From positions 1 to 22,254 of IMG/VR virus record IMGVR_UViG_3300045286_000034: 22,254 nucleotides of DNA; one strand, given 5' to 3'. This DNA is from a virus. Shown piece after piece: positions 2,138 through 17,329 of the stretch (positions within the stretch are counted from its first letter, which is position 1; the number at the start of each line of letters is the position of its first letter). The position numbers and the translations under genes are program-made. Below the pieces are notes generated by a model. That model ran no database searches, had not been told where the DNA came from, and was given only the letters and a program-made list of their open reading frames with translations.

Positions 2138-2658
2138 CAGTTCCTCTCAACCGTATAGATCGTCTGCCCGATCCTGAAGGTCTTGCCGACCGGGACGACG
2201 GTCGTGAATCCGTTGGCCGGCGTCACGAACTGCCTCGGAGCGTAGACATATTCCTTCGCCGAGCGCACGGTGATCTGCGCCGCGTCCACATCGACGGTCG
2301 CCTCGCCACCAACGCCTGACGCGAGGAAGACCGGGTCGGTCGCGCCGAGCACAGAACCGATCCCGGCATCGAATCCGTATATCTGGATCGCCCGGTCGCT
2401 GATCCCGTAGGTCAGCAGCAGAGATCCGATCACATCGTCGACGTTGCCGATCTTGAGTGTCCCGCTGATCTGCGCCGCATCGACACGAAGGTCACTCACC
2501 ATCACGTTCGCCGACTGCCACACCTGCCCGCTCGGCCATTCGACATCGCCCTGCGTCGAATAGCGGAGCGGCTGATTGAAGGCGATGTAGATCAGGTAGC
2601 CTGGTCGAGTGACCGGTTTGCCCTGCGCCGTGTTCAGCGCATCACTGAGCGTTCTCAT
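2137..2658 (-). CDS. Minor tail protein, tail-tip assembly (DUF2163-like pattern)
   Basis: A 173-residue protein right after the tape measure. It is beta-rich with no cysteine. Recognisable stretches are PGYLIYIAFNQPLRYSTQGD (residues about 20-39), WPSGQVWQSANVMVSDLRVD, GTLKIGNVDDVIGSLLLTYG, RAIQIYGFDAG and EATVDVDAAQITVRSAKEYV. 'R.V.L.tf..p.ry...g.v.w.G..w...gl.v..i......l.i.N.d......l....' is the general pattern of phage tail-tip or hub N-terminal proteins (DUF2163 type), so I assign it to the distal tail with moderate confidence. In lambda the genes at this place are M and L, and this one could fill an L-like role. It starts in an ATGA overlap with the tape measure and overlaps the following gene by one base (TGATG). 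Confidence 0.78.
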   Translation of the reverse strand: MRTLSDALNTAQGKPVTRPGYLIYIAFNQPLRYSTQGDVEWPSGQVWQSANVMVSDLRVDAAQISGTLKIGNVDDVIGSLLLTYGISDRAIQIYGFDAGIGSVLGATDPVFLASGVGGEATVDVDAAQITVRSAKEYVYAPRQFVTPANGFTTVVPVGKTFRIGQTIYTVERN

Positions 2659-5600
2659 GGCGAGTTGACTTCAGCGGGCGGTTGCATGTTGACGATGACA
2701 TTGATCGGGCGATTGGCAACCTGCCCGATAGCATTGGACACGATGGCCCCGATCGCCTCGGCGCTGCGGTTGACGGCGATCACCACCTGATCGATGCCGG
2801 TGCGGACACCCTGAATGCCGGAGTCGATCAGGCCAAGCTGCCCCTGCTCGATCGACTGACCGTTCTGCGTGACGAGAGTCAGGTAGTCAACCGGCGCCGT
2901 GTTCGCCAGCGCATCGAGGTTCGTGTTGTTCTCTTTCAGGTAGTCGGCGATCGACGTGAACGCATCCTCGGTATTCAGCAGCGCGGCGATGGCCGGCGAA
3001 TCCCCGGCGCGCAGCGCGTTCGTCATCAGATCCTTGAACTCGGCCATCGTGTCGAGTCCGGCCGTCTCGATGCCGGCGCCCTGCAGATTGGTGACGATGC
3101 CGCGGGCGGTGATGCCGGCGCGCTCCGGGTCCGAGTAGAAATGCTCGATGTACGAGTTGACCTTGCTGGTGAAACTGCTGATGCCACCGGTCAGTTGCAC
3201 CAGTGCGTCGCGCGCCTCGACCGACATATTCGCGAGGTTGCTGAACGCGCCGCCGATGTACTGAACTGCCCGCGCCGCCTCATACGCGTTGCGCGCCATG
3301 CCCATCGACGCCTTCAGGTCGTCGATCGAGATCGTCACCAGATCGAGGGCGCGAACGAAGTTGACCACGATCGCGTCGGCGTCGACGATCTCGTTGACGC
3401 CATCCATGATCTCGGCGATGGCATCCGCCCGAACCTTCGCCTCTTCCTCGGCTTTTTTCTTGATCTCCGCGGCCGTCGTTTCAGACGCATCGATGACCGC
3501 CGTGAATGCCGGGACCAGTTTCATCAGCGAAACGAACAGGCGTCGATCCGCTTCGTCCGTGAGATTCAGACTGTCGACCACGTCGCGGAACTCTGCCCTA
3601 GTGTCGACCCATCCGAGATTCAGTTCCTCGAGAACGGCGGTGACATCCTTCGTCTGGATGGCGAGCTTTTCCTCGGCCGTATACATGCGGTCGAAGTACG
3701 TGCTGACCGCACTGCCCATCTGACTCAGGCCACCGAAGAGTTCGATCAGCGATGTGCGCGCCTCGACCGTCATGTCCGGCAGTTGCGCGAACACGCCGCC
3801 GAGTTCGGTCAGTGCATCCTCGAGTTCCTTCGCCTGCGACGCGAGCGCAATCATCGCGTCGATATCGTCCTTCGTCGCCGTCGTCAGGTCGACCTTGGCG
3901 AAGAAATCGGCGAACGGTTTGGCGAGATCCGCGCCCTGCAGTCCGGCGATGAACATGCGCTGCAGCGCATCCTCGATCGTTTTCTGCGCATCCTCATTGG
4001 CGACATTCTTGTCGAACGTGTAGTCGACGTTGCCGCCAGTGACGCGGCCGTACACCTGCTCGCCCTTGTTGTCGGGGCTGGCCGAGGTATAGATCGCGAA
4101 CTGCTGTGCGTTCGCCGTCCCGCCCAGTTTCTTGATCGCGTCGGCGATGCTGGTGGTGAGTTTCTTCAGCGGTTCGTCGTACGCAGTTGCGCTCTGCAGG
4201 TTCGGCGCCTCGGTGAACCATCCGCCGAGATTGGTCTGTCCTGCCAGATTCGCGGTCGAGAAATTCTGGATGGCCGGGTGCGACTTGTTCGCGCTGATAA
4301 TCGAGTAGATCGCGTAGGCCGCGGCGATCCACGGCACCGCCTGCCCCATCATCGCGACGACTTCGCCCGCGCCCGTGAGCGTCGGCGCGATCAGGCCGGC
4401 GCCCTCCACACTCATGTTCGACAGCGTCGAAAGGCCGAGCGTCTGTCCAACGCCTGAAAGCGCGAACGTCTCGCCGAGCGTCCCGGCTTTCGTCCATAGG
4501 TTCGCAATGGAACTCAGTCCGGTGATGCCGGAAGATTTCTCTGACGCCGCGGCAGCGCCAGCGGCGCCGAGTCCGACCGCGCCGAGCGCGGTGCCGACGA
4601 TCGACTTCACTACCGGCTCGACCATCAGTTTGATCACCAGCGTCTTGAACGCGTTTTTGATCGAGTCGACGAGGTTCTGCAGGAATCCCTTGCCCTTGTC
4701 GAACCCGCGCATCAGCGCATCGGTCAGCGCATTGCTGATCGACTCACTGACGCGTACCCATTCTTTCTCGACATCCTTGGCTTCCTCGACGGTCTGCTTT
4801 TTCTGGCCGTGCGCCAGTTCCGCGGCATTGAGATCGCGCAGCGCATCGATGCGTTGACGGATCAGCAGCAGATCCTCTTCGGTGGCGCCGCGGGCGAGTT
4901 GATCCGTCGCCCACGATTCCATCCGGTTGATCTCAAGCTGGCGCTCGACGAACAGGAGTTGCGCCTTGGCTTCGGCGTTCAGGCCGAGCACGTTCGTCTC
5001 GTCACGGATCTTGTTCGCCTTTTCCGTGATCTTCGCCGTCTCGGCGGTGTACGCGTCGATGAATTTCTGTTCCTGCTTCAGATACTCGGCCTGGTCCTTC
5101 GCGAGCCGCGCCTGCTGATCGGCCAGATCCTCGGACGCAATGGCCGCATACATCAGAGACAGCACGGCCTGACGCATCCCCTCGGACCATTTGGCGAACG
5201 CCGGATTCTTCAGGATCTCGAGCAGCAACGTCTGCGACTTCGACAGGTCGGCGGACTTCGCCTCACTCTTCGTGAGCAGATCCAGACCTTTCTCGTAGAA
5301 CGATGCCCACTCTTTCGCGGCGGTGCGCTGATCGGCGAACTGGTCGCCGCCCGCGCCCTTTTCCTTGAATTTCTCGCGGATGGCGGCGATCCGTTTCTGG
5401 ATCTCTTCCTCACTCTTGCCGGCCAGTTCACCGAGGCGGCGTGCCTCGGCGATCTCGCGTTCCATCTTCACTTTCTTGCTGAGGTACTGATCCTCATCCT
5501 TGTACCAGCGGTCCATCGCCCGCGTGCGTTCCGCCTGCTCGGCGAGACTGCCGGCGATGCGACTGTTCAGGCGCGCAACCTCCTGCAGTTCCGCCTGCTG

Positions 5601-6902
5601 CTGGCGCAGCGAGTTCAGTGTTGCGTTCGCCGATTCGATTGCGCGTGCGTTGTCGACGCCTGGTCCGAGCCGCTGCAGGTTCGCCACGCGTGATTCCTGC
5701 GCGCGGATCTTGTTCGATATCTCCGACAGAGGATCGCCAGCACGACCGATGCCCATGATCGCGTCGATCACTTCCTTGCTGACATCCTTGATCGCCAGCC
5801 ACGCGCGGCTGACCAGTCCGAGATTCTTGATCATCTCGGGCGTGCGTTCCTCGATCGCCTTCGCGTAGGCGTCCTGCGCCATCCTCGCGGCACCGGTCAT
5901 GTCACCGGTCTGCTCCAATGCGCGGATCTGCTCGTACATCGCGGGCGTGAGGAAGTTCATCGCCTCGTTCAGCTTGATCACCGACTTGAGCGGATCTTTG
6001 CCGAGATCGGCGAATGCCTCGGCCGTCTTGGCGATGGCGGGGCCGCCCGCGCGCTCGAGCTCGATCGCGGCCATCGAGAACCGCTGCAGTTCATCGGCGG
6101 CGACGCGGCCGGTGCGTACGAACACGTCGAGCACATCGGTCGCCTTGCCCTGCGTCGTGCCGATACGGTCCATCGCCGCGGCCATTGCCGTCAGGCGTGG
6201 AACCGTCGTGCCGACCATGTTGCCGCTTTCGAGCAGCGCGAGATTGAGTTGCGTCGTTTCCTCGCGCCCCTTGGCGAAGCCGTAGGCGAGCACGCCGATC
6301 GCGGTGGCGCCGATCGTAAGTGGCGTGATCAGCGACCAGAGCAAGGTGCCCATCGCCTTCGCCGCGGCACCGATGCCGCCGAACATATCCTTGATCTGCC
6401 CGCCTTGCTGCAGGAAGACCATCATCGGCGGCTGGCCCGACGCGAGCGACACGAAGATGTCGGTGAACTGCGCCGGCAGTCCGCGCATCGACGCCTGAAT
6501 CTGCTTGGCGGACAGACCCATGCGGTCCATCGCCTTGCCGGTGCCGATCTGTTGCGCCTCAAGTGCCTTGAGCGCGTTGAGTTCGGCCTGCAGCGGGCCG
6601 ACATCGACGCCCTTGATCTGCGCCAGTTTCTCGTAGTACGCGCTACCCGATTTGCCGAACGCCGCGAACTCCGCAGTGGTCCGCTGGATCTGGTTGCGGA
6701 TCGCGTTCTGCTGCCTGGTGAGTTTCTGCTCGGACGCCGCGCCTTCATCGCCGATTTTCTTGACGCCGACCGCGGCTTCCTGTCCTGCAGCGGCGACCGT
6801 CTCGCCGAGCTTTTGTCCGGCAGATGCGAGTGCGGCGAGTTCCTGCTTGCCCTGCGTCGCATCGACGCCGATCTTCAGATCGACTTCGCGTTCATTAGCC
6901 AT
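2655..6902 (-). CDS. Tail length tape measure protein (lambda GPH-like)
   Basis: A 1415-residue tape measure protein, which sets tail length and later helps DNA pass the envelope. The N-terminus MANEREVDLKIGVDATQGKQ and the segment PPMMVFLQQGGQIKDMFGGI, followed by hydrophobic MGTLLWSLITPLTIGATAIG (from residue 184), match the prophage tape measure family. A long Glu/Lys/Arg/Ala-rich helical region spans about 400-730. A GKGFLQNLVDSIKNAFKTLV block with a Gly/Ala-rich hydrophobic stretch (SIVGTALGAVGLGAAGAAAA) lies near 735-790. The C-terminal third holds an internal duplication (MTVEAR at 1044, MSVEAR at 1226; unit about 182 residues). By the lambda ratio of roughly 0.15 nm per residue, the tail would be near 200 nm; this is an estimate. 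It overlaps the T frame upstream and the next gene (ATGA) downstream. Confidence 0.96.
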   Translation of the reverse strand: MANEREVDLKIGVDATQGKQELAALASAGQKLGETVAAAGQEAAVGVKKIGDEGAASEQKLTRQQNAIRNQIQRTTAEFAAFGKSGSAYYEKLAQIKGVDVGPLQAELNALKALEAQQIGTGKAMDRMGLSAKQIQASMRGLPAQFTDIFVSLASGQPPMMVFLQQGGQIKDMFGGIGAAAKAMGTLLWSLITPLTIGATAIGVLAYGFAKGREETTQLNLALLESGNMVGTTVPRLTAMAAAMDRIGTTQGKATDVLDVFVRTGRVAADELQRFSMAAIELERAGGPAIAKTAEAFADLGKDPLKSVIKLNEAMNFLTPAMYEQIRALEQTGDMTGAARMAQDAYAKAIEERTPEMIKNLGLVSRAWLAIKDVSKEVIDAIMGIGRAGDPLSEISNKIRAQESRVANLQRLGPGVDNARAIESANATLNSLRQQQAELQEVARLNSRIAGSLAEQAERTRAMDRWYKDEDQYLSKKVKMEREIAEARRLGELAGKSEEEIQKRIAAIREKFKEKGAGGDQFADQRTAAKEWASFYEKGLDLLTKSEAKSADLSKSQTLLLEILKNPAFAKWSEGMRQAVLSLMYAAIASEDLADQQARLAKDQAEYLKQEQKFIDAYTAETAKITEKANKIRDETNVLGLNAEAKAQLLFVERQLEINRMESWATDQLARGATEEDLLLIRQRIDALRDLNAAELAHGQKKQTVEEAKDVEKEWVRVSESISNALTDALMRGFDKGKGFLQNLVDSIKNAFKTLVIKLMVEPVVKSIVGTALGAVGLGAAGAAAASEKSSGITGLSSIANLWTKAGTLGETFALSGVGQTLGLSTLSNMSVEGAGLIAPTLTGAGEVVAMMGQAVPWIAAAYAIYSIISANKSHPAIQNFSTANLAGQTNLGGWFTEAPNLQSATAYDEPLKKLTTSIADAIKKLGGTANAQQFAIYTSASPDNKGEQVYGRVTGGNVDYTFDKNVANEDAQKTIEDALQRMFIAGLQGADLAKPFADFFAKVDLTTATKDDIDAMIALASQAKELEDALTELGGVFAQLPDMTVEARTSLIELFGGLSQMGSAVSTYFDRMYTAEEKLAIQTKDVTAVLEELNLGWVDTRAEFRDVVDSLNLTDEADRRLFVSLMKLVPAFTAVIDASETTAAEIKKKAEEEAKVRADAIAEIMDGVNEIVDADAIVVNFVRALDLVTISIDDLKASMGMARNAYEAARAVQYIGGAFSNLANMSVEARDALVQLTGGISSFTSKVNSYIEHFYSDPERAGITARGIVTNLQGAGIETAGLDTMAEFKDLMTNALRAGDSPAIAALLNTEDAFTSIADYLKENNTNLDALANTAPVDYLTLVTQNGQSIEQGQLGLIDSGIQGVRTGIDQVVIAVNRSAEAIGAIVSNAIGQVANRPINVIVNMQPPAEVNSP
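2883..3875 (-). repeat. Internal protein-level duplication in the tape measure
   Basis: Two copies of a roughly 140-residue segment lie about 182 residues apart, at residues about 1010-1145 and 1190-1340. Matching elements are ELGGVFAQLPDMTVEAR with YIGGAFSNLANMSVEAR, LIELFGGLSQMGSAVSTYFD with LVQLTGGISSFTSKVNSYIE, and DTRAEFRDVV with DTMAEFKDLM. The similarity is only at protein level, so the duplication is old. Confidence 0.8.
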
Positions 6903-7604
6903 TGGTCGTTCCGGTCATCGTTTCCATCGCCGCCGTTTCAAGGATCTGGATGTCATCGAGCATCTGTTCCCAGTCGTCGCCCTTCAAGCCTTTCTCATCC
7001 ATCAACCGGAACGCGACGGAATAATCCAGCCCCGAAGGGCCAGAGAATCCAGTCCGCCATTGCGTCCCGAGTCGACAGAACAGACAAACCGCCGCCCAGT
7101 TATCGGGCCAGACCTCCGTTTCCTTGTTCCTGTAAATCTTGCCAAGATCGAATCCACCCGCGGCCGGCGTCTCTTTCTCTTCCTTCGCGTAGAGCGCCGC
7201 CGCCGCGGCTCTCAGTTTCCCACTCGCCCTTCCGAGATCGCGGTGCGGTACGTGTTAATGATCGCCAGCGCCACACCGGGCAGTTCATCGCAAAGCTGCG
7301 CGACGTTCTCGCGGTTGAATTCCGACTCGAGGTTCCATCCCTGCGCGACCTTCAGGATGTAGTCGGCGTTCGTGTCGCGCGTTTTCGACAATGCCTCTTC
7401 CAGCGATGAGGCGATCTCATCCTCGGTGCGCGCGGTCGATGCAACCTTCGCCTCGGCAAAGAGTTCATCGATGAATTTACCGAACTCCGTGCGTGTTCGG
7501 TAAAGGTAGACCATCTCGACCGTGCCCTCTTCGCCCTCGGGGAGCATGACCTTGATGTTGTGCTTGAACGTCTTGGGCCTGTTGCCCAATTTGATCTTCG
7601 GCAT
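6895..7604 (-). CDS. Frameshifted tail assembly chaperone fusion (lambda gpGT equivalent, DUF1799-like T part)
   Basis: This is the -1 frameshift product: about 130 residues from the zero frame joined to 106 residues from the -1 frame, 236 in all. The shift occurs at 7215-7221. The -1 frame is open from the heptamer to TAA at 6895 and has no ATG until MDEKGLKG, in its last third, so it depends on frameshifting. Its translation begins LRAAAAALYAKEEKE and contains VWPDNWAAVCLFCRLGTQWR, GFSGPSGLDYSVAFRLMD and WEQMLDDIQILETAAM. The pattern W.W..V.lF..l.TQWR.G..GP.GLDY is that of DUF1799, the usual T part in lambda-like phages of Gram-negative hosts. Its end overlaps the tape measure start by 8 bases (ATGGCTAA). 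A minority GT product should load chaperones onto the tape measure, as in lambda. Confidence 0.88.
7212..7604 (-). CDS. Tail assembly chaperone (lambda gpG equivalent)
   Basis: A 130-residue protein between the tail tube and tape measure genes, the fixed place of the lambda G-type tail assembly chaperone. It has a short beta-rich N-terminus (MPKIKLGNRPKTFKHNIKVM, then EGTVEMVYLYRTRTEFGKFI) and a helical C-terminal half (DYILKVAQGWNLESEFNREN; VAQLCDELPGVALAIINTYR). 'GWNLESEFN.EN...L....PG....I...Y' is a recognisable chaperone pattern. The start ATG 7604 has only a poor ribosome binding site (AGAAAG). The zero-frame stop TGA follows directly after the slippery heptamer GGGAAAC, so this is the non-shifted product. 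It binds tape measure and tube subunits during assembly and is absent from the mature virion, by analogy with lambda. Confidence 0.9.
   Translation of the reverse strand: MPKIKLGNRPKTFKHNIKVMLPEGEEGTVEMVYLYRTRTEFGKFIDELFAEAKVASTARTEDEIASSLEEALSKTRDTNADYILKVAQGWNLESEFNRENVAQLCDELPGVALAIINTYRTAISEGRVGN
7215..7221 (-). promoter_or_regulatory. -1 programmed frameshift site GGGAAAC
   Basis: In the chaperone frame the minus strand reads G GGA AAC TGA, a canonical X XXY YYZ heptamer placed immediately before the stop codon. Slipping back one base pairs GGG AAA and continues with CTG AGA. A GC-rich segment with an AGAGC/GCTCT pair and the palindrome GCCGCGGC follows within a few bases and may act as stimulator. 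Confidence 0.9.
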
Positions 7605-7707: not shown

Positions 7708-8367
7708 TTAGGAGCCGTAGGTGACGGCCTTGCCGAGCAGCGAGAAAACCGCGGTGATCTGGTTCGCCTGCCCCTGTGCCAGCATCGGCACTTCGGACAC
7801 GGCCATGTAGCCGTACCCGTAGGTGACCGCGCCGCTCGCCAGCGCCAGCTTGAAGGCGACGGGAGTCAGCACACGCGACAGCGCCATCATCGCCTGCAGC
7901 GTCGCGTCGGACGAGTCGTAGCCGATCGTCAGCGTGATGTTGGTCGGGTTGAATCCGGTCGGCACCTGAATCGCGGTGCGGCGCGCCAGCGGAGATATCG
8001 TCGTGAAGCGAGGATCGCCACCGGATGTTGCGATGGTGAGCACCTGCGGGATCGCCACCCATGTCGAGATTTTCTTCACGGTGCTGCTTGCACCAGCGCC
8101 GGCCGGGAACGTCGCCACGTTGGTCGTGTCGAGTCCGGTCAGACTGAAGGTGTCGGCCGTCAGTTGATCGAGTTTGAACACCGAGTCGGCCGCTTCGGGC
8201 CATCCGGCCGAGTTGAAGTAGACGATGTCGTTGTCGAGCAGGCCGTGCGTGGTGCTGGTGGCAACGCCGGGGTTCGCGTTGGTGAAACCGGTAATCGTCT
8301 TCGCCGCGGCGAAGGCAGTCGAATCTGCGTAAGAGAAGGTCGCGCCTTCCGGAAAACTGTATGACAT
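7708..8367 (-). CDS. Major tail tube protein
   Basis: A 219-residue protein placed where the tail tube subunit is expected, between the tail-completion and chaperone genes. It starts MSYSFPEGATFSYADSTAFA and carries a domain with GLLDNDIVYFNSAGWPEAAD and VFKLDQLTADTFSLTGLDTT, a pattern I know from other phage tail tube proteins. It continues with LSRVLTPVAFKLALASGAVT and the ending QANQITAVFSLLGKAVTYGS, typical of the tube beta-barrel ('i..v.aTFsllg....y'). AGGAG sits 7 bases before the ATG. It is bracketed by a strong upstream hairpin and a downstream terminator, so it may be expressed separately and abundantly, as this protein is needed in many copies. Confidence 0.87.
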   Translation of the reverse strand: MSYSFPEGATFSYADSTAFAAAKTITGFTNANPGVATSTTHGLLDNDIVYFNSAGWPEAADSVFKLDQLTADTFSLTGLDTTNVATFPAGAGASSTVKKISTWVAIPQVLTIATSGGDPRFTTISPLARRTAIQVPTGFNPTNITLTIGYDSSDATLQAMMALSRVLTPVAFKLALASGAVTYGYGYMAVSEVPMLAQGQANQITAVFSLLGKAVTYGS

Positions 8368-10363: not shown

Positions 10364-12772
10364 TCAGGTCCGGTGTGTATCAGGCGTCCGCGGACGCTTC
10401 GATTCCTGCGTTTCCGGCCGCACGGTCGGTATTGTGACGGGGCGGGCCGATTCTTCAATGCGCCCGCGCCTTCCTTCCCCGGTCCGTCCCTGACCGTAGA
10501 CAATCGGGGACAGATCCGCGACCAGATCGGCGAGCGCGGCCGCGGTGTCGCTGATCTCCGCGGTCTTGACCACCGCGGCCGAGTACGCGTCTCGGGCGAC
10601 CACCGTCGACTGGTAGATCCCCTCGCCGCCGAGTTCGCCCTTGTATGTCCAGAACGCCCGCGCGGCCGACTCAAACAGGACGCCGATGATTTCGGTGGCG
10701 CCGATCGCGTAGGAAGCCGATGCGGTGGCAGCGTGATTGGCCGTGATACGTGCTGTGGCCGTCAGATCGGCCGCTGCGGCCGCGGACGCTGCGTGGGTGA
10801 CCGAGTACCTTACCGTGGCCGAGATCGCGTCGCCTGCGCCCGCCTGGTAGGCGACGAAGTCACTCCCGCCGGTTGACGTGTCGGTAACGAACCCGGCCGC
10901 GGCGGTTGCGGCATGGGTGACCTGTAGCCGCTGCTTCGTCGTGATCGAGTCGGTGGCGCTCGCCGACCCCTGATGCGCCGCCACCCCGATCGTCTTAACG
11001 GTCAGTGTGAACGTGGCCGCGGCGGTCGCCGTGTGGGCGGCGACCAGTCTCAGGGCGACCGTGGCGGTGTAGACCGCCGTTGCCGCCGACGTGTAGGTGA
11101 CCGGACTGTTCTGCTGCGCCGCAAACGAAGTCGCTGCTGCCGCCGCGCTCGCGAACGTGCCGGCCGATACCTGCTTGGCAGAAACCGTGTCTGTCGCGAT
11201 CGCCTCGGGCGTGTGGGCGTACTCGCCCGGACGCATGGCGGTGACGCCGAACGTGGCCGCGGCGGTGAAGTCGGCCGCGGCCGCAATGATCTGCGTGCCG
11301 GTGAACGATGCGGTCGCCGCCGCCAGCCCATCGTGGACGCCGATCTTGCCGGCGATCCCGGTGAGGGTCAGCAGCGCCGCCGCCGTCTCGGCGTAGGTCA
11401 CTGCCTGAACTCGAATGCCGCTTACCGCGTCCGTCGCCGCCGCCGCGCTCGCGAAGGTCGGGCTGAACTTCAGCAGTCCGGTTGCCGCCCCGGTCGCCGC
11501 TGCAGAGCTCGCGAAGGTGACGCCGATCTTTCCAGTGACCGCGTACGAGTCGGCCGCTATGGCCGCGGCCGTGTGCGTCCCGGTCTGCGGTCCGCCGGCA
11601 GCGGGAGTCGGCACGCGGAACTCGATCCAACTGATCCGGAATTCAGCGCCGCCGACGTAAGTGGAGTCGGTCGTGAATCCGGATGCGGCCGACGTGGCGA
11701 ACGTGACGAAGATATTGCCCGCGCCGGTATTGCTGTCGGTCGCCACCGCGGACGAGGCGAAGGTGACCTGGAGACTGCGCGCACCCGAGTTGCTGTCGGT
11801 CGCCACCGCGCTCGACGCGAACGTGGCGGCGGATTTCTGAACCGCGGAGACGCTGTCAGTTGCGCCCGCAGCGGAAACAAAGGCGGCTACATACTTTCCG
11901 ATCGCCGACTGACTGGTGGTCGCGATAGCGGCTGATGCGAATGCGTCCGATATGCCACGCGATGCGGCAACAGCATCGGTCGCAACGGCGACAGATGCAA
12001 AGGTGACCGATTTCGCGACGCGGCCGGAAACGGAATCGGCGGCGGTCGCCACGGAAGAAAACGTGTGCGCCGATCTCTGCACCGCCGAATCACTATCCGT
12101 CGCAGTCCCGGTCGACGTGAAGGTGTCGGAGAGAATCTGCGTGGAATCGATTTCGATCGCGGCACTCGCGAACGCAGAAGCAGAGGTGCTGCCCCATGTG
12201 ACCGTTGCGTTCGTGATGCCGGTGATCTTGTACGCGGCACGGGCACCAGTTACCGGAGTGTTGTAACCCTGGTCAGTCGCCGCCGTGTAGGTGCTCGGGC
12301 CAGTTACGCCTGATGTGTTGGTTCCGTTCGCAACCGCCGAAATGATCGTGTTCGCCGTCAGTGGCGTGTTGCTCAGTACAGGCGCAGGCGTCGTTCCAGA
12401 TCCGCCGCTTGATTGACCGCCTGAAGACCGGATAGCGCTTGAGCCGTATCGAGAACCCCCTCCGACTCGATAGACGAACAGTCCGCCGCCAGTGGAACTC
12501 GTCTGCGTCGCTGTGACCGTCATCGCCGAGGCGCTCACGGCGGTCGTGCGCGCCCACACACTCAGGGTGCCGGTTGTCGAAAACCCGGTGTAATCACCCG
12601 CGACCTTCGTCCAACTTCCAGACTGTGAGTCGGTGATGCCTGACGTTGCGACACCGGTTGATACGCAGACGGCGATAAGCAGATCGCCAGCGGCCGGAGT
12701 GAACGAACCAGTCGACTTGTTCCCGATCGCGGTGGTTAATACCGGGGTGACCGCGGTAATGGACAGTGCCAT
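10364..12772 (-). CDS. Long 20-residue-repeat virion protein, putative fibre
   Basis: An 802-residue protein. Residues 1-about 212 form a Ser/Thr/Gly-rich beta domain (AAGDLLIAVCVSTG; GSWTKVAGDYTGFSTTGTLS; AAYKITGITNATVTWGSTSA), a jelly-roll-like pattern common in phage structural proteins. Residues about 215-702 are about 25 units of a strict 20-residue repeat (consensus near VTFASAAVATDSVSGxxxxx), with an aromatic or His at 218, 238, 258 and on to 358, then 400, 420 and on to 700. Residues about 755-802 are a basic, Pro/Arg-rich disordered tail. There is no cysteine apart from Cys36, no signal peptide and no coiled coil. The start overlaps the preceding stop as TAATG. The first connector gene begins 11 bases after its stop. 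Tail fibre, head fibre and stalk protein are all possible; position favours head or head-tail junction. Function is unknown. Confidence 0.82.
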   Translation of the reverse strand: MALSITAVTPVLTTAIGNKSTGSFTPAAGDLLIAVCVSTGVATSGITDSQSGSWTKVAGDYTGFSTTGTLSVWARTTAVSASAMTVTATQTSSTGGGLFVYRVGGGSRYGSSAIRSSGGQSSGGSGTTPAPVLSNTPLTANTIISAVANGTNTSGVTGPSTYTAATDQGYNTPVTGARAAYKITGITNATVTWGSTSASAFASAAIEIDSTQILSDTFTSTGTATDSDSAVQRSAHTFSSVATAADSVSGRVAKSVTFASVAVATDAVAASRGISDAFASAAIATTSQSAIGKYVAAFVSAAGATDSVSAVQKSAATFASSAVATDSNSGARSLQVTFASSAVATDSNTGAGNIFVTFATSAASGFTTDSTYVGGAEFRISWIEFRVPTPAAGGPQTGTHTAAAIAADSYAVTGKIGVTFASSAAATGAATGLLKFSPTFASAAAATDAVSGIRVQAVTYAETAAALLTLTGIAGKIGVHDGLAAATASFTGTQIIAAAADFTAAATFGVTAMRPGEYAHTPEAIATDTVSAKQVSAGTFASAAAAATSFAAQQNSPVTYTSAATAVYTATVALRLVAAHTATAAATFTLTVKTIGVAAHQGSASATDSITTKQRLQVTHAATAAAGFVTDTSTGGSDFVAYQAGAGDAISATVRYSVTHAASAAAAADLTATARITANHAATASASYAIGATEIIGVLFESAARAFWTYKGELGGEGIYQSTVVARDAYSAAVVKTAEISDTAAALADLVADLSPIVYGQGRTGEGRRGRIEESARPVTIPTVRPETQESKRPRTPDTHRT
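10667..12130 (-). repeat. 20-residue (60-base) repeat array, about 25 units
   Basis: The array is in near-perfect 60-base register. For example, a 21-base identical run (ttgctgtcggtcgccaccgc plus g) occurs at 11730 and again at 11790. Two units are longer or divergent and resemble each other: SGFTTDSTYVGGAEF (364-378) and AGFVTDTSTGGSDF (626-639). They contain the only breaks in the aromatic/His ladder. Confidence 0.9.
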
Positions 12773-14337
12773 TACGTCACCTTGCCGCGCACATGAACAT
12801 CGGTGTAATCCGAGATCAGATCAGCCTCGGCGCCAGCCATCGTTAACCAGAAAGGCGCACCCGCAGCGATCGGTCCTGCGACCGACCATTCAGATAACTT
12901 CGTGGACGTTCCCTGCCAGATCGCGAACGTGAGCGTCTTGCCGGAAGGGATCTCGACCGGAACCTGAAAGCCGAGTTCGTGATGGTCGTTCGCGCCGGGA
13001 TCGGTGAGCGCACTGACCTTGATGTCGAACTCTGCGCCGAGCGTCACCGTCTTGATGTAATCGCCATCATCGGGCACAACTTCATCGACGACCGCGTACA
13101 GGTCCGGGCCGCTGCTCGCCGTCCATCCGGTCGTTGTGATGTCTGCGATCGGATGCGATATCTGGTAGGCGATGCCACTGACATCGAATCCGGCCGTCAC
13201 CGCCGCGACGATGCTCGCGACGTAGGCAACGATGCTCGAGACGCTTTCTCCCGCCCGCGCCTGCGCGGTCACGGTGGCGAGCAGAGCGAGAACTGCCGCT
13301 TGACTGGATGCCGCGCCTGCTGCCTCTGAGATCGCGGCTACGAGTTTCGCGGCAGCGGACGCCTGGTCTGTCGCCGCCGCCGCTGATGTGAGTGTCGCGA
13401 ACAGTTTGCCAACGGCGGTGATCTGGTCGGTCGATGCGCCTGCAGATGTCAGCGTCGCAAGCAGTTTCGCAACCGCAGTCGTCGTGGCCGTGGCCGCGGC
13501 AGAGTCGGCAATCGTGCCGGTGAGTTGCTGAACCGATGACTGCGCACTCGTCGTGAATACCGCCGCCGCATCGCTGGCGAACGTGGCGGTAAGCACCTGC
13601 GGCCCCGCGGCAGCTTCGCTCGGCACCACCCACGGGACGAAGTGCAGGCGCGGTGGAGCGCGGAAGAGTTGCCACGGGTCAGTTTGCAAAACTGAAGCAG
13701 CAAGAGCGACATTCAATTCGCCGGTTCCAAAAACAACATAACCAGTCGAACCAAGACTGTTGTATCCCGTGTAGAACGACCCCCATCCCGTGAAGGCAAC
13801 CCCATCATCATCGAATGTCCGAAGATCGGCGGTCGTCCCTGTGCCAACGGTCACAGTGCCGTCAACGGCGATGATTGGCGCAACGCCAGACTTTCGGTAT
13901 CCAATGACGGTGCTGTACGCGCCGAGCGCATTCGATGAGGTTACTGAGCCGCCACCCCATGTGCTAAGTACAAGTTTGTTTGTCGCGTAGGTTTGGCCGA
14001 GCGATACGTTGAACCATGTGTATGCGTTGCCGGTATCAGAAAGCCAATAGCCATCGCTAGCAAGCGACAAATTCGGTTTGATCCGCGCAATGAACCACCA
14101 CGGCGCTGTCGGCGGAACAACGTAGTACAGGCACTTCTGGTTTATCTTTACAACGCTGTTCAGCACATGGTAGATCGAACCACCTTCGACATTCGGCCTG
14201 AACTCATAGCCGCTGCTTCCACTGGCGACGTACCCGTCAATCTGACTGCTAGGAGTGCTGGCCGAACAAAAATCCAATGACCGTAAGACACGACCACCGC
14301 AGAACTCTTTACGCGGGACGAATGGGCGTTGTTTCAT
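12772..14337 (-). CDS. LamG + 20-residue-repeat virion protein
   Basis: A 521-residue three-part protein. Residues about 1-225 form a LamG-like domain (WWFIARIKPNLSLASDGYWL; GYVVFGTGELNVALAASVLQ) ending in DPWQLF at 220-225. Residues about 248-405 hold roughly eight Ala/Ser/Thr-rich repeats; from residue 276 the phase is exactly 20 (GTIAD 274, ATLTS 294 and 314, AAISE 334, ATVTA 354, ASIVA 374). Residues about 405-521 form a beta-type C-terminal domain ending ADLISDYTDVHVRGKV, a pattern I remember at the C-terminus of other phage structural proteins (D.I.DY.DL.VR). Junctions with both neighbours overlap (ATGA, TAATG). Base composition changes abruptly at the LamG/repeat boundary: 43 of 60 G+C in the block at 13621, 25 of 60 in the next. 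The LamG part therefore looks like a foreign head joined to a resident stalk. Confidence 0.82.
   Translation of the reverse strand: MKQRPFVPRKEFCGGRVLRSLDFCSASTPSSQIDGYVASGSSGYEFRPNVEGGSIYHVLNSVVKINQKCLYYVVPPTAPWWFIARIKPNLSLASDGYWLSDTGNAYTWFNVSLGQTYATNKLVLSTWGGGSVTSSNALGAYSTVIGYRKSGVAPIIAVDGTVTVGTGTTADLRTFDDDGVAFTGWGSFYTGYNSLGSTGYVVFGTGELNVALAASVLQTDPWQLFRAPPRLHFVPWVVPSEAAAGPQVLTATFASDAAAVFTTSAQSSVQQLTGTIADSAAATATTTAVAKLLATLTSAGASTDQITAVGKLFATLTSAAAATDQASAAAKLVAAISEAAGAASSQAAVLALLATVTAQARAGESVSSIVAYVASIVAAVTAGFDVSGIAYQISHPIADITTTGWTASSGPDLYAVVDEVVPDDGDYIKTVTLGAEFDIKVSALTDPGANDHHELGFQVPVEIPSGKTLTFAIWQGTSTKLSEWSVAGPIAAGAPFWLTMAGAEADLISDYTDVHVRGKVT
13123..13596 (-). repeat. 20-residue (60-base) repeat array, about 8 units
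   Basis: This array encodes the stalk of the 521-residue protein. Five-residue cores of the type A-[TA]-hydrophobic-[TSV]-[SAE] recur every 20 residues, and several units share Lys-Leu just before the core (KLLATLTS, KLFATLTS, KLVAAISE). The units are related in period and composition to the array in the next gene, but the aromatic/His core residue is mostly replaced by Leu, Ile or Val. Confidence 0.75.
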
Positions 14338-16664
14338 TGCGGCACCAGAATCGCGCTCTTAGGCATGCGCTGCGCGGGCGAGGGGAGGAAGATCGTGCGG
14401 CACCGAAGTTCACGGAAAATCTGCCACGGATCGCGCTGCCACTCCAACATCTCGACATCCAACAGTCGGCGATTCCAAACCGCGATCAGGTAAATGCGTC
14501 CATAGAAGTAAGTGACCAAATCCGCCCTGCTTGCGATCCACGTTTCCCGCGTCGTTGGTGGGTCAAGCAACACATTCGATCCGGCGTATTGGAGTACACC
14601 GGCAGAACCGGGGACGCCATTGACCATGAACGTCGGCACATCGTTGAGATAGCCACTACTAGAAACAGAAACCTTGTGTCCTATCCCCGCAGCAAGCATG
14701 TTGGATGCCGAGCCGCGCCAAATTGAGTAGTAGGTAGCGGTTGACTGAATGAGGCAGATGTGGGAGTCCGTAGGTCCGTCACCAATTCTTAATTCAATGC
14801 CACCACCTATTCCGTTACTGCCATTGGCGGCGCACAGAATCGCGCTGTAGTTTGCCAGCGAGTAGACATCCACGTAGGCGCCAATCGTGAACGGCCCCGA
14901 CTTGAGCTTTATGGCATTGATTGCGTGGTACTGGATTTGACCAGTCGTCGAATTAGCCGCGAGGCCGCAAGGTCCACCGCTAAGTGGCATCCACCACGGA
15001 CTTGTGACCGGAGACGCATTGATGAGTGAGACGCCAAGATTCGCAGAAAAGGTCGAAGCCAATCCAACAGTCAACGGATTGGTGTTGTTAAACTCGATGG
15101 TGCGCGGTTGCCTCGTCACCCTCGACGGCAGATGCAGCGCAGGCGTAGCGAGTGCCTTGGCGCGCGGCACGCCGACACCGGGGACGTTGGGGATGAAGAT
15201 AGTGCGCGACGGACCGGGCGAGCGGAAGAGTTGCCAAGGGTTTGCAGTGAGTTCCCTCAACATCAAGTCTGAAAGCGCAACGTTCCAATCGGCATGTAGC
15301 AACAGCGTGCCGTCAAACACTTCAGATCCTGAAGTATTCCTCGCCCCATAGATCACGTTCGGTTCGGTAGGATTGGAAAATGACGCTGATGCCGTCCCGT
15401 TGCGAACCAGCCGACCATTGACGTGATCTAGCCTCACGTTCTGACCGCCAGAATAGGAAACGCTTGCACAAGCGAGCACACCTTGAGTCAGGCCAGCACC
15501 ACTCGTATTCCCCAATTCCGAAACGCCCTGAATAACAAGGCGCATCTCGCTACCGGAAACTGCCCACTGGCAGGTGAAATTCTCGCCCGAAGAAAGTGTC
15601 CCGCCGCTCGCGCCGGGAATGAATATCGCCAGCCGCGTGAACTCATTTGCGTTTGCAGGGCGCAGTGCTTTTGTCCCAACCCTGATGTAACTGCTGCCTG
15701 CGGTGTTTAGTTTCCACCCGGCCCCTATGGAAGAGCCGCCGAGCGAAACACCAGCACTGTCGTTGACAAATCCACGGCATCCGAATGACGCGAGATCGTA
15801 AAGACCTATGCCATTCGGCAATGCCACTGAAATGATGTCTTTTGTATACGGAGTTTTTGATAGTTCAATGGTGCGCGGTTGCCTCGTCACTCTCGACGGC
15901 AGACTAATGAACGGCACTGCGCTTCGCTTGACGTTCTCAAACAACGCCCACGGATTTGATTGATACTGCCGCAGGTCTACCGTGCCGGTCGAATCAACCG
16001 CGAACATGATCGGGCTGGCGTATGGGCCACCAGAGGAAAACCGCGATCCGATGTATGGCACGCCAGTTATCAATGAAGGCGACCCGCCGCCTTCTGTCTG
16101 CGTCGGCATCCGGCCATCAACCCAAATCTCATACGTCGATCCGGTCCAATGGAAAACGGCAACATGCACTCCGTTGTTGAGCGCGTAAGAAGCCTCGGTG
16201 ATCCCTCGCCGACCACCATTGAGTACGGACAGCACTTCATCTGTTAGATAACCAGTGCTACCACCGAACTGAATGCTTCCTTCGACCGCCGAACCATCGG
16301 CAATCGTCGCCAGCAATTGATTACCACTGACCGAATTGATCGGACCTAGCGAAACGGAAAACAAACACAAGACGCTGCGCCATTCGCAGGAGCCGAACGC
16401 GGTCCGCTGCGTGGGTCCAGAAGCAGTTGCCCTGAGAACTTGGAACCCATACTCATCGCTTGGAATCCAGTTAGCGCTTGGTTGCTCCTTCGATTTGCGG
16501 TCAGCGCGATAGAACCCACCATCGAGAACGTACCCGGCTTGAATGGGCAAACCAGATGTAAGGCCAACAGGTGTGTCGGGTTGCCTCTCCCAACGCGAAG
16601 AGGCGAGGATGAGTGCGCCTTGCGAGGTCGATCCATCAGGCGCGCGGGTGAAGTAGGAGCGCAT
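14334..16664 (-). CDS. Triple-LamG virion protein (tandem lectin-like modules)
   Basis: A 776-residue protein with three tandem LamG-like modules. They end at NPWALF (residue 237), NPWQLF (475) and DPWQIF (745). Modules 1 and 2 are each followed by the linker LPSRVTRQPRTIE (residues 255 and 512, exactly 257 apart). Modules 2 and 3 show clear LamG endings (GTLLLHADWNVALSDLMLRE; YGRIYLIAVWNRRLLDVEML); module 1 is less typical (YEIWVDGRMPT and VDLRQYQSNPW). There is no signal peptide or membrane segment. The ribosome binding site is weak, so translation relies on the TGATG overlap with the previous gene; it overlaps the next as ATGA. The DNA is about 50% G+C in sampled blocks, lower than head and connector genes, suggesting separate acquisition. 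The likely role is a surface-exposed adhesin or decoration on the virion; the binding target is unknown. Confidence 0.85.
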   Translation of the reverse strand: MRSYFTRAPDGSTSQGALILASSRWERQPDTPVGLTSGLPIQAGYVLDGGFYRADRKSKEQPSANWIPSDEYGFQVLRATASGPTQRTAFGSCEWRSVLCLFSVSLGPINSVSGNQLLATIADGSAVEGSIQFGGSTGYLTDEVLSVLNGGRRGITEASYALNNGVHVAVFHWTGSTYEIWVDGRMPTQTEGGGSPSLITGVPYIGSRFSSGGPYASPIMFAVDSTGTVDLRQYQSNPWALFENVKRSAVPFISLPSRVTRQPRTIELSKTPYTKDIISVALPNGIGLYDLASFGCRGFVNDSAGVSLGGSSIGAGWKLNTAGSSYIRVGTKALRPANANEFTRLAIFIPGASGGTLSSGENFTCQWAVSGSEMRLVIQGVSELGNTSGAGLTQGVLACASVSYSGGQNVRLDHVNGRLVRNGTASASFSNPTEPNVIYGARNTSGSEVFDGTLLLHADWNVALSDLMLRELTANPWQLFRSPGPSRTIFIPNVPGVGVPRAKALATPALHLPSRVTRQPRTIEFNNTNPLTVGLASTFSANLGVSLINASPVTSPWWMPLSGGPCGLAANSTTGQIQYHAINAIKLKSGPFTIGAYVDVYSLANYSAILCAANGSNGIGGGIELRIGDGPTDSHICLIQSTATYYSIWRGSASNMLAAGIGHKVSVSSSGYLNDVPTFMVNGVPGSAGVLQYAGSNVLLDPPTTRETWIASRADLVTYFYGRIYLIAVWNRRLLDVEMLEWQRDPWQIFRELRCRTIFLPSPAQRMPKSAILVPQ
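15097..15132. repeat. 36-base direct repeat, copy 2 (LamG linker)
   Basis: This is the second copy of the linker repeat, between LamG modules 2 and 3. The surrounding LamG modules have diverged far more than this linker. That implies recent duplication, gene conversion or selection acting specifically on the linker. Confidence 0.9.
15868..15903. repeat. 36-base direct repeat, copy 1 (LamG linker)
   Basis: This is the first copy, in transcription order, of a 36-base direct repeat encoding the LPSRVTRQPRTI linker between LamG modules 1 and 2. It matches the copy at 15097-15132 at 35 of 36 positions; one C/T difference is silent. The copies are 771 bases apart, an exact multiple of three. Confidence 0.9.
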
Positions 16665-17329
16665 CAGATTGGCTCACTCGCGTAAACGGCCCAAGGGTTC
16701 ATCGCATAATCAAAGTGCTCTCTGGCGGATAGCGCGCGACGAAACAGCGCCGCGAAGTAAGCCACTTCTGCGGAAACACCCGTGGTCAAGACACTGAAAT
16801 CCACGTTGGCATTGTTGACGGCACCCACGCTGAAAGGACTGTCAAACTGCTTGCCGTTCACGTAGAAAGTCAGCAGCGATCCTGTGTTGGTGAACCCCAC
16901 CACCATGATCTGACTGTCTCCGTATGAAGTGCCGTCCCAAATTGAAGTGGTCGTTTGGTAGTCGGCAATCCCACCATGAGTGAAACGCAGATACCCATAA
17001 TTCGCCTCTTGAAACGCCAACCCAACACCGGCAGAAAACTGGTAGAAAAAATTGAAGTTGCCACCGTAAGGAATGATGTTGGTCAGGAACACTCCTGACA
17101 ATGGAAGTTTCAGGACGGGGAGCGCCGGGTAGATTATGTTGTTACCAGTAACGGGGATGACACTTCCAAGTCCCCATTTGGTCGCGCGAGTGCCGAGCGT
17201 GTAAGAACCCGCCGCGCCGCGCACCAACTCTCGATTCCGCACGCAGTCGAAAAGGAACAGCAAATCATTCCTCGGGCGAGCAGGACCACTCGGTTGCCTT
17301 CTAACCGCCCCCGGCAACTGAACCAGCAC
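16664..17329 (-). CDS. LamG/concanavalin-like domain protein, single module
   Basis: A 221-residue protein made of one LamG-like (concanavalin A-like) beta-sandwich, a fold that usually binds carbohydrate or protein ligands. The N-terminus holds the linker LPGAVRRQPSG, a diverged copy of LPSRVTRQPR found twice in the next gene. Visible LamG hallmarks are the strand pattern QIMVVGFTNTGSLLTFYVNG followed by KQF, and the closing FAALFRRALSAREHFDYAMN, ending in NPWAVY near the C-terminus. That NPW[AQ][LV][FY] end motif is shared with all the LamG modules downstream. The start is GTG with a consensus Shine-Dalgarno. Its stop overlaps the next start as TGATG, so the LamG genes are translationally coupled. 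G+C is low here (26 of 60 in the block at 17041). The protein is probably virion-attached; the target is unknown. Confidence 0.82.
   Translation of the reverse strand: MLVQLPGAVRRQPSGPARPRNDLLFLFDCVRNRELVRGAAGSYTLGTRATKWGLGSVIPVTGNNIIYPALPVLKLPLSGVFLTNIIPYGGNFNFFYQFSAGVGLAFQEANYGYLRFTHGGIADYQTTTSIWDGTSYGDSQIMVVGFTNTGSLLTFYVNGKQFDSPFSVGAVNNANVDFSVLTTGVSAEVAYFAALFRRALSAREHFDYAMNPWAVYASEPI

Follow-up and report, generated by a model that had tools for sequence, protein, structure and literature searches.

The minus-strand tail region of IMGVR_UViG_3300045286_000034, an IMG/VR viral record analysed here as a window of 22,254 bases, contains what is very probably (probability about 0.88) the G/G-T frameshift cassette of a siphovirus-type phage, with a lambda-style -1 frameshift predicted to yield a rare G-T fusion. 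The slippery heptamer lies directly against the stop codon of the chaperone gene, and the abutting stop, the weak heptamer ending in AAC and a putative 3' hairpin recur together as a conserved unit across Phage_TAC_4/DUF1799 members. At the sequence level, this reading is carried by the layout of the locus, its conservation, selection on a GGA codon and on the stop position, and an excess of hairpin stability; from these we infer that frameshifting occurs, as well as its low rate and the part played by the stop.

Organization of the predicted frameshift locus

All tail genes and the whole frameshift locus lie on the minus strand (Table 1). The 3' end of G reads GGG CGA GTG GGA AAC TGA, with zero gap between GGGAAAC and TGA. 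In the -1 frame, GGG AAA CTG AGA GCC continues for 108 codons, 106 of them after the slip, and reaches a TAA (6897..6895), overlapping the first 8 bases of the tape measure gene, whose ATG is at 6902. The predicted G-T fusion would comprise 130 + 106 = 236 residues. The original prediction had proposed a GGGAAAC site touching the stop of the chaperone gene, a 108-codon -1 frame, an 8-base overlap with the tape measure gene and a 236-residue fusion, and all of these are confirmed; the layout, together with the conservation described below, also agrees with the lambda G/GT-like mechanism that it put forward for the predicted fusion. Its remark that the gene is easily missed for want of an early start holds too: T has no ATG, GTG or TTG until codon 71 of its 106, which already lies within the conserved domain, and several public records miss or shorten T.

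With four copies in the window, GGGAAAC occurs at about chance level for a 7-mer, and by itself it is not rare; the significance of the slip site lies in its register, place and conservation. G contains a single in-frame X_XXY_YYZ heptamer, G_GGA_AAC. As expected of a phage G/G-T -1 frameshift, it is in register close to the 3' end of the gene that precedes the tape measure gene; from the heptamer the open -1 frame leads into a conserved T domain, which relatives retain.

Elsewhere on the minus strand, four large genes (221, 776, 521 and 802 aa; 10364-17329, about 7 kb) lie between the head genes and a gp6-like head-tail connector (PF05135), a position unusual for such proteins. One of them carries a Laminin_G_3 lectin-like domain and two have Ala/Thr-rich repeats.

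Table 1. Features of the predicted frameshift locus and its neighbours in the window
Feature	Coordinates	Strand	Description
Tail tube protein	7708..8367	-	Upstream of G; expected T partner; Pfam PF08813 Phage_tail_3, E 1.7e-32
G, tail assembly chaperone	7212..7604	-	130 aa, ends ...GRVGN, TGA; Pfam PF08748 Phage_TAC_4, E 3.3e-29; PHROG 569
Slippery heptamer G_GGA_AAC	7215..7221	-	Read from the sequence, register checked
TGA stop of G	7212..7214	-	Abuts the heptamer; first two bases within the -1 codon CTG
Putative 3' stimulatory hairpin	7189..7211	-	GCCGC/GCGGC core 5 nt after the heptamer; from folding of the segment
T, -1 frame extension, DUF1799	6895..7215	-	106 aa + TAA; Pfam PF08809, E 4e-23
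Tape measure protein	2655..6902	-	1415 aa; Pfam PF06791 TMP_2, E 3e-68; start overlaps the T end by 8 bases

Protein families and fold

In profile searches, G matched Phage_TAC_4 (PF08748) over residues 2-130 with 102.1 bits against a curated cut-off of 21.1, and residues 28-100 of T matched DUF1799 (PF08809) with 81.9 bits against a cut-off of 26, placing each protein within its family. The DUF1799-like domain foreseen in the -1 frame is thus present, including its VWPDNW...TQWRTGFSGPSGLDY signature. Neither G nor T matched the lambda G/T families PF06894 and PF06223 at E up to 0.1, and lambda's own proteins do match them; the two proteins would work like lambda G and T while lying, by sequence, outside the lambda families.

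The structure of T was predicted with confidence (mean pLDDT 86.7). Its best matches among viral models were tape measure chaperones, the best match alone falling below E 0.001, and the matches include long chaperones of fused size from Serratia phage Scapp, Klebsiella phage Solomon, Caulobacter phage CcrColossus and Acinetobacter phage Loki. Fold searches of T and G against solved structures gave no significant match, and sequence searches against solved structures returned chance matches alone.

Conservation of the heptamer and the abutting stop

Viral contigs, bacterial genomes and named phages together gave 103 related loci, which reduced to 74 distinct relatives at 90% G identity or, in the case of L106, by stop position. 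All close relatives from viral contigs have GGGAAAC-TGA and an open T frame. Across the 74, the heptamer lies directly against the stop as GGGAAAC in 59, as AAAAAAC in 13 and as GGGAAAT (before TGA) in one; in the one remaining relative, GGGAAAC precedes TAG by a single sense codon. The stop itself is TGA in 53, TAA in 17 and TAG in 4. Members include the Tlsvirus Stevie, phages of Vibrio, Serratia, Pseudomonas and Stenotrophomonas, and a Synechococcus phage. A -1 frame broken in relatives had been named at the outset as a possible refutation; the T frame is intact across them, save in contigs that end within T.

Because heptamer and stop are in direct contact in almost all relatives, abutment is, on the loci compared, the ordinary layout of the Phage_TAC_4/DUF1799 group and no quirk of a single phage. 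The original prediction had presented it as a variant of this phage; it is instead the norm for the family, and had been reported earlier for Burkholderia phage KL1 (PMC3483164) and Loki (PMC5313236).

The same layout prevailed among the loci found in a random draw of 398 Pseudomonadota genomes, a sample independent of similarity to this phage. Phage_TAC_4 loci in these genomes carried the heptamer in 12 of 12 cases and the abutting stop in 11 of 12, one of the 12 being the centre genome, which was already known. Distinct DUF1799 loci had an in-register heptamer in 31 of 32 cases; of these slip sites, 30 of 31 were XXXAAAC and 25 of 31 abutted the stop, the remainder having it 3, 9, 18, 27, 54 or 105 nt away. 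In four distant DUF1799 loci (L155, L171, L181 and L182) AAAAAAC is kept but the stop lies 9 to 105 nt beyond it. These loci offer natural contrasts for the role of the stop, and it follows from them that the mechanism in the wider family does not depend on abutment. The displaced variant GGGAAAC TCG TAG occurs in two different lineages (L106/L137 and L153). DUF1799 genes were also seen on the plasmids NZ_CP123758 and NZ_CP137518 (Arsenophonus, Pseudomonas aeruginosa), apparently phage-plasmids, and the P. aeruginosa locus reads GGGAAAC-TGA. Avoidance of a GTG or ATG start was considered as the reason for the C that ends the heptamer and was ruled out, as the C persists with TAA and TAG stops.

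Nucleotide-level selection at the slip site and stop

The glycine codon of the slip site is GGA in 60 of 60 cases, against 26 of 632 (4.1%) for the other glycines in G, which points to selection on GGA at this position. Naive probabilities for such codon-bias counts ignore relatedness and do not serve as tests. On the T side, residue 2 is variable (K, R, T, I, M, S, V or E), yet the first base of its codon is A in 70 and G in 3 of 73 loci, as TGA, TAA and TAG require. Codon 1 of T is CTG or CTA, or TTG once in the GGGAAAT case, and never CTC or CTT, although these two account for 42% of the CTN leucines in the rest of T. Given the other leucine codon use of T and the bases that follow, we estimate arithmetically that a stop would be expected there at a frequency of about 14%. 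A free residue 2 with an A- or G-initial codon, combined with the missing CTC and CTT in codon 1, indicates that the stop position itself is under selection.

The bases that follow TGA show no bias (TGAC 14, TGAT 14, TGAG 13, TGAA 12). Conservation extends to the C-terminal residues of G, where N130 does not vary across the alignment because it belongs to the slip codon. An upstream Shine-Dalgarno-like GAAGG/GAGGG is found in most close relatives, but conserved Glu-Gly codons explain the motif and it is missing from distant relatives such as L023; it is not claimed as a signal.

A putative hairpin downstream of the slip site

No consensus RNA structure was found by alignment across the relatives, and structure was therefore tested sequence by sequence, comparing the 45 nt from the third T codon with a null that preserves the amino acids and local codon usage. 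In 73 relatives this segment is more stable than the null (mean z -1.36, p 3e-11, treating relatives as independent), with mean z of about 0 to -0.3 further downstream in T. In the random genomes the mean z is -1.24 (p 1e-5, again treating loci as independent), and there the rest of T shows a slight negative shift as well (-0.4 to -0.6). The excess is family-wide, though some members in both sets lack a hairpin.

For this phage the codon-preserving z is -1.9, in line with the earlier suggestion that the GC-rich 3' segment is structured. A 90-nt fold compared with dinucleotide shuffles gives z -1.33 for this phage alone, and it is the family test that carries the hairpin claim. A longer alternative stem of the putative hairpin extends to about 7158. 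Across the family, stems begin about 5-8 nt after the heptamer and their sequences differ between lineages. Stimulators of -1 frameshifting usually lie 5-9 nt after the heptamer, and are often present without being obligatory.

Comparison with known frameshift sites

Among the closest known systems is gp18/gp19 of phage KL1, where GGGAAAC stands immediately upstream of the G-gene TGA and is followed by a -1 extension and a predicted 3' stem-loop (PMC3483164); unlike the locus in the window, KL1 G falls below Phage_TAC_4 in Pfam, and KL1 has an extra gene between T and the tape measure gene. Loki gp12/gp13 likewise has its heptamer immediately adjacent to the stop (PMC5313236), and the Loki chaperone is a weak fold match of T, but the heptamer is AAAAAAC where the window has GGGAAAC. 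Escherichia phage T1 (ST40/ST39) and the Tlsvirus chaperones, as in Stevie, share AAAAAAC directly before TAA and a -1 frame open towards the tape measure gene; T1 G is a Phage_TAC_4 protein, whereas Stevie G is only about 25% identical to that of the window, and the heptamer differs in both.

Lambda G/T is alike in slipping back one base at G_GGA_AA(N) towards the 3' end of G and in having T in the -1 frame ahead of the tape measure gene, but its heptamer is GGGAAAG, its stop lies 15 nt downstream and its proteins belong to Phage_TAC_2 and Phage_tail_T. In two other sets of phage chaperones the stop is also further off, on average 26 and 36 nt away (PMC10885494). A stop immediately 3' of the heptamer is found at some -1 sites used by eukaryotic ribosomes, as stated in PMC4373837, although these involve other heptamers and stimulators and unrelated proteins. 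In the openly readable literature covered, we found no paper linking DUF1799 by name to frameshifting and no statement of abutment as a family rule.

Proposed mechanism and alternatives

The majority of ribosomes would translate G and terminate at TGA, while a minority would slip back by one base on G_GGA_AAC, read CTG from the last base of the heptamer and the first two of the stop, and continue, for 106 codons in total, to give the 236-residue G-T. Lambda is the model, with G as the binder of the tape measure protein and the rare G-T recruiting the tube protein (PMC5009743); by analogy, G would coat the tape measure protein here and the rare T domain would recruit the tail tube protein. Release factor would compete with slippage at the abutting stop, keeping G-T rare, and the hairpin would favour slippage. 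Both GGGAAAC and AAAAAAC have low efficiency in E. coli, where A_AAG versions perform best (PMC4066793). In the sole direct bacterial test found, earlier work described in PMC4373837, a stop after the HIV -1 heptamer, a different site from the phage G_GGA_AAC, lowered shifting and extra RF2 abolished it. HK97-like chaperones, which profile searches place in another family, Phage_TAC_1, shift at 6-7% in E. coli (PMC3711429). We favour, as an unproven reading, a low-rate design in which a weak heptamer and a competing stop are offset by the hairpin. More tentatively, the Phage_TAC_4/DUF1799 family may use a natural bacterial -1 frameshift with the stop in the A site, in which slippage would follow translocation and the G:G-T ratio would depend on competition from release factor, with the hairpin as the tuning element.

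Expression of T as a separate protein, through termination and reinitiation at the CTG overlapping TGA or from a later start, would need no frameshift, and could draw on that overlap and on database records that annotate a short separate T gene (Aval, VarioGold, Marilyn). It is very unlikely: there is no ATG, GTG or TTG here before codon 71 and no conserved start position across the 74 relatives, the overlapping codon becomes CTA where the stop is TAA or TAG, and the 60 of 60 GGA codons and the heptamer would be left unexplained. RNA polymerase slippage on an A run, giving some mRNAs one base longer or shorter, might be entertained for the AAAAAAC relatives with their runs of six or more, but GGGAAAC, the majority form and the one present here, has runs of three only, and we regard this as extremely improbable.

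The remaining alternatives concern the stop. It may have no role in decoding and simply trim the G C-terminus to the slip codons, with no zero-frame tail across the T hairpin; such minimal overlap would be a simple means of sparing G a junk extension and of protecting the hairpin from being melted by terminating ribosomes, and the conserved last residues of G, including N130, would fit. This account is less likely than not, as the invariance of N130 is due to the slip codon, other chaperone families tolerate tails (15 nt in lambda, means of 26 and 36 nt in the two sets of PMC10885494), and L106 and L153 carry one extra codon. The stop could instead act as a stimulator, as the original prediction had claimed. 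On this view the slowly decoded stop would hold the ribosome with Gly-tRNA in the E site and Asn-tRNA in the P site, and the pause would drive the -1 slip. Stops do stimulate +1 frameshift sites, such as prfB, and the position of the stop is strictly conserved here; in HIV constructs, moreover, the codon after the heptamer enters the A site before part of the slippage (PMC4373837). Against this stand the lowered shifting and its loss with excess RF2 in the bacterial test cited above, the use of all three stops with no bias in the following base, and the DUF1799 members that keep the same heptamer without an abutting stop. We therefore consider stimulation unlikely, and the claim that the stop promotes slippage, at heptamers both of low efficiency, is unsupported and may be backwards.

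Implications for annotation and for -1 slippage in bacteria

The locus represents a known mechanism in a new phage, and the family-wide rule of abutment is its modest new content. For annotators, the rule offers a simple pattern, XXXAAAC-stop with a DUF1799 frame after it, by which to find a gene left out or truncated in several public records. Truncated separate T genes, likely misannotations, are recorded at L112 (1938-2249), L113 (2001-2189), L114 (1908-2219), L129 (1040-1207) and L133 (1058-1321); in each the frame runs back to the slip site, and one is called an FAD-dependent oxidoreductase. The family also supplies a large set of natural bacterial -1 sites, that of the laboratory phage T1 included, relevant to the old question of whether -1 slippage can take place once the A site is occupied by the following codon.
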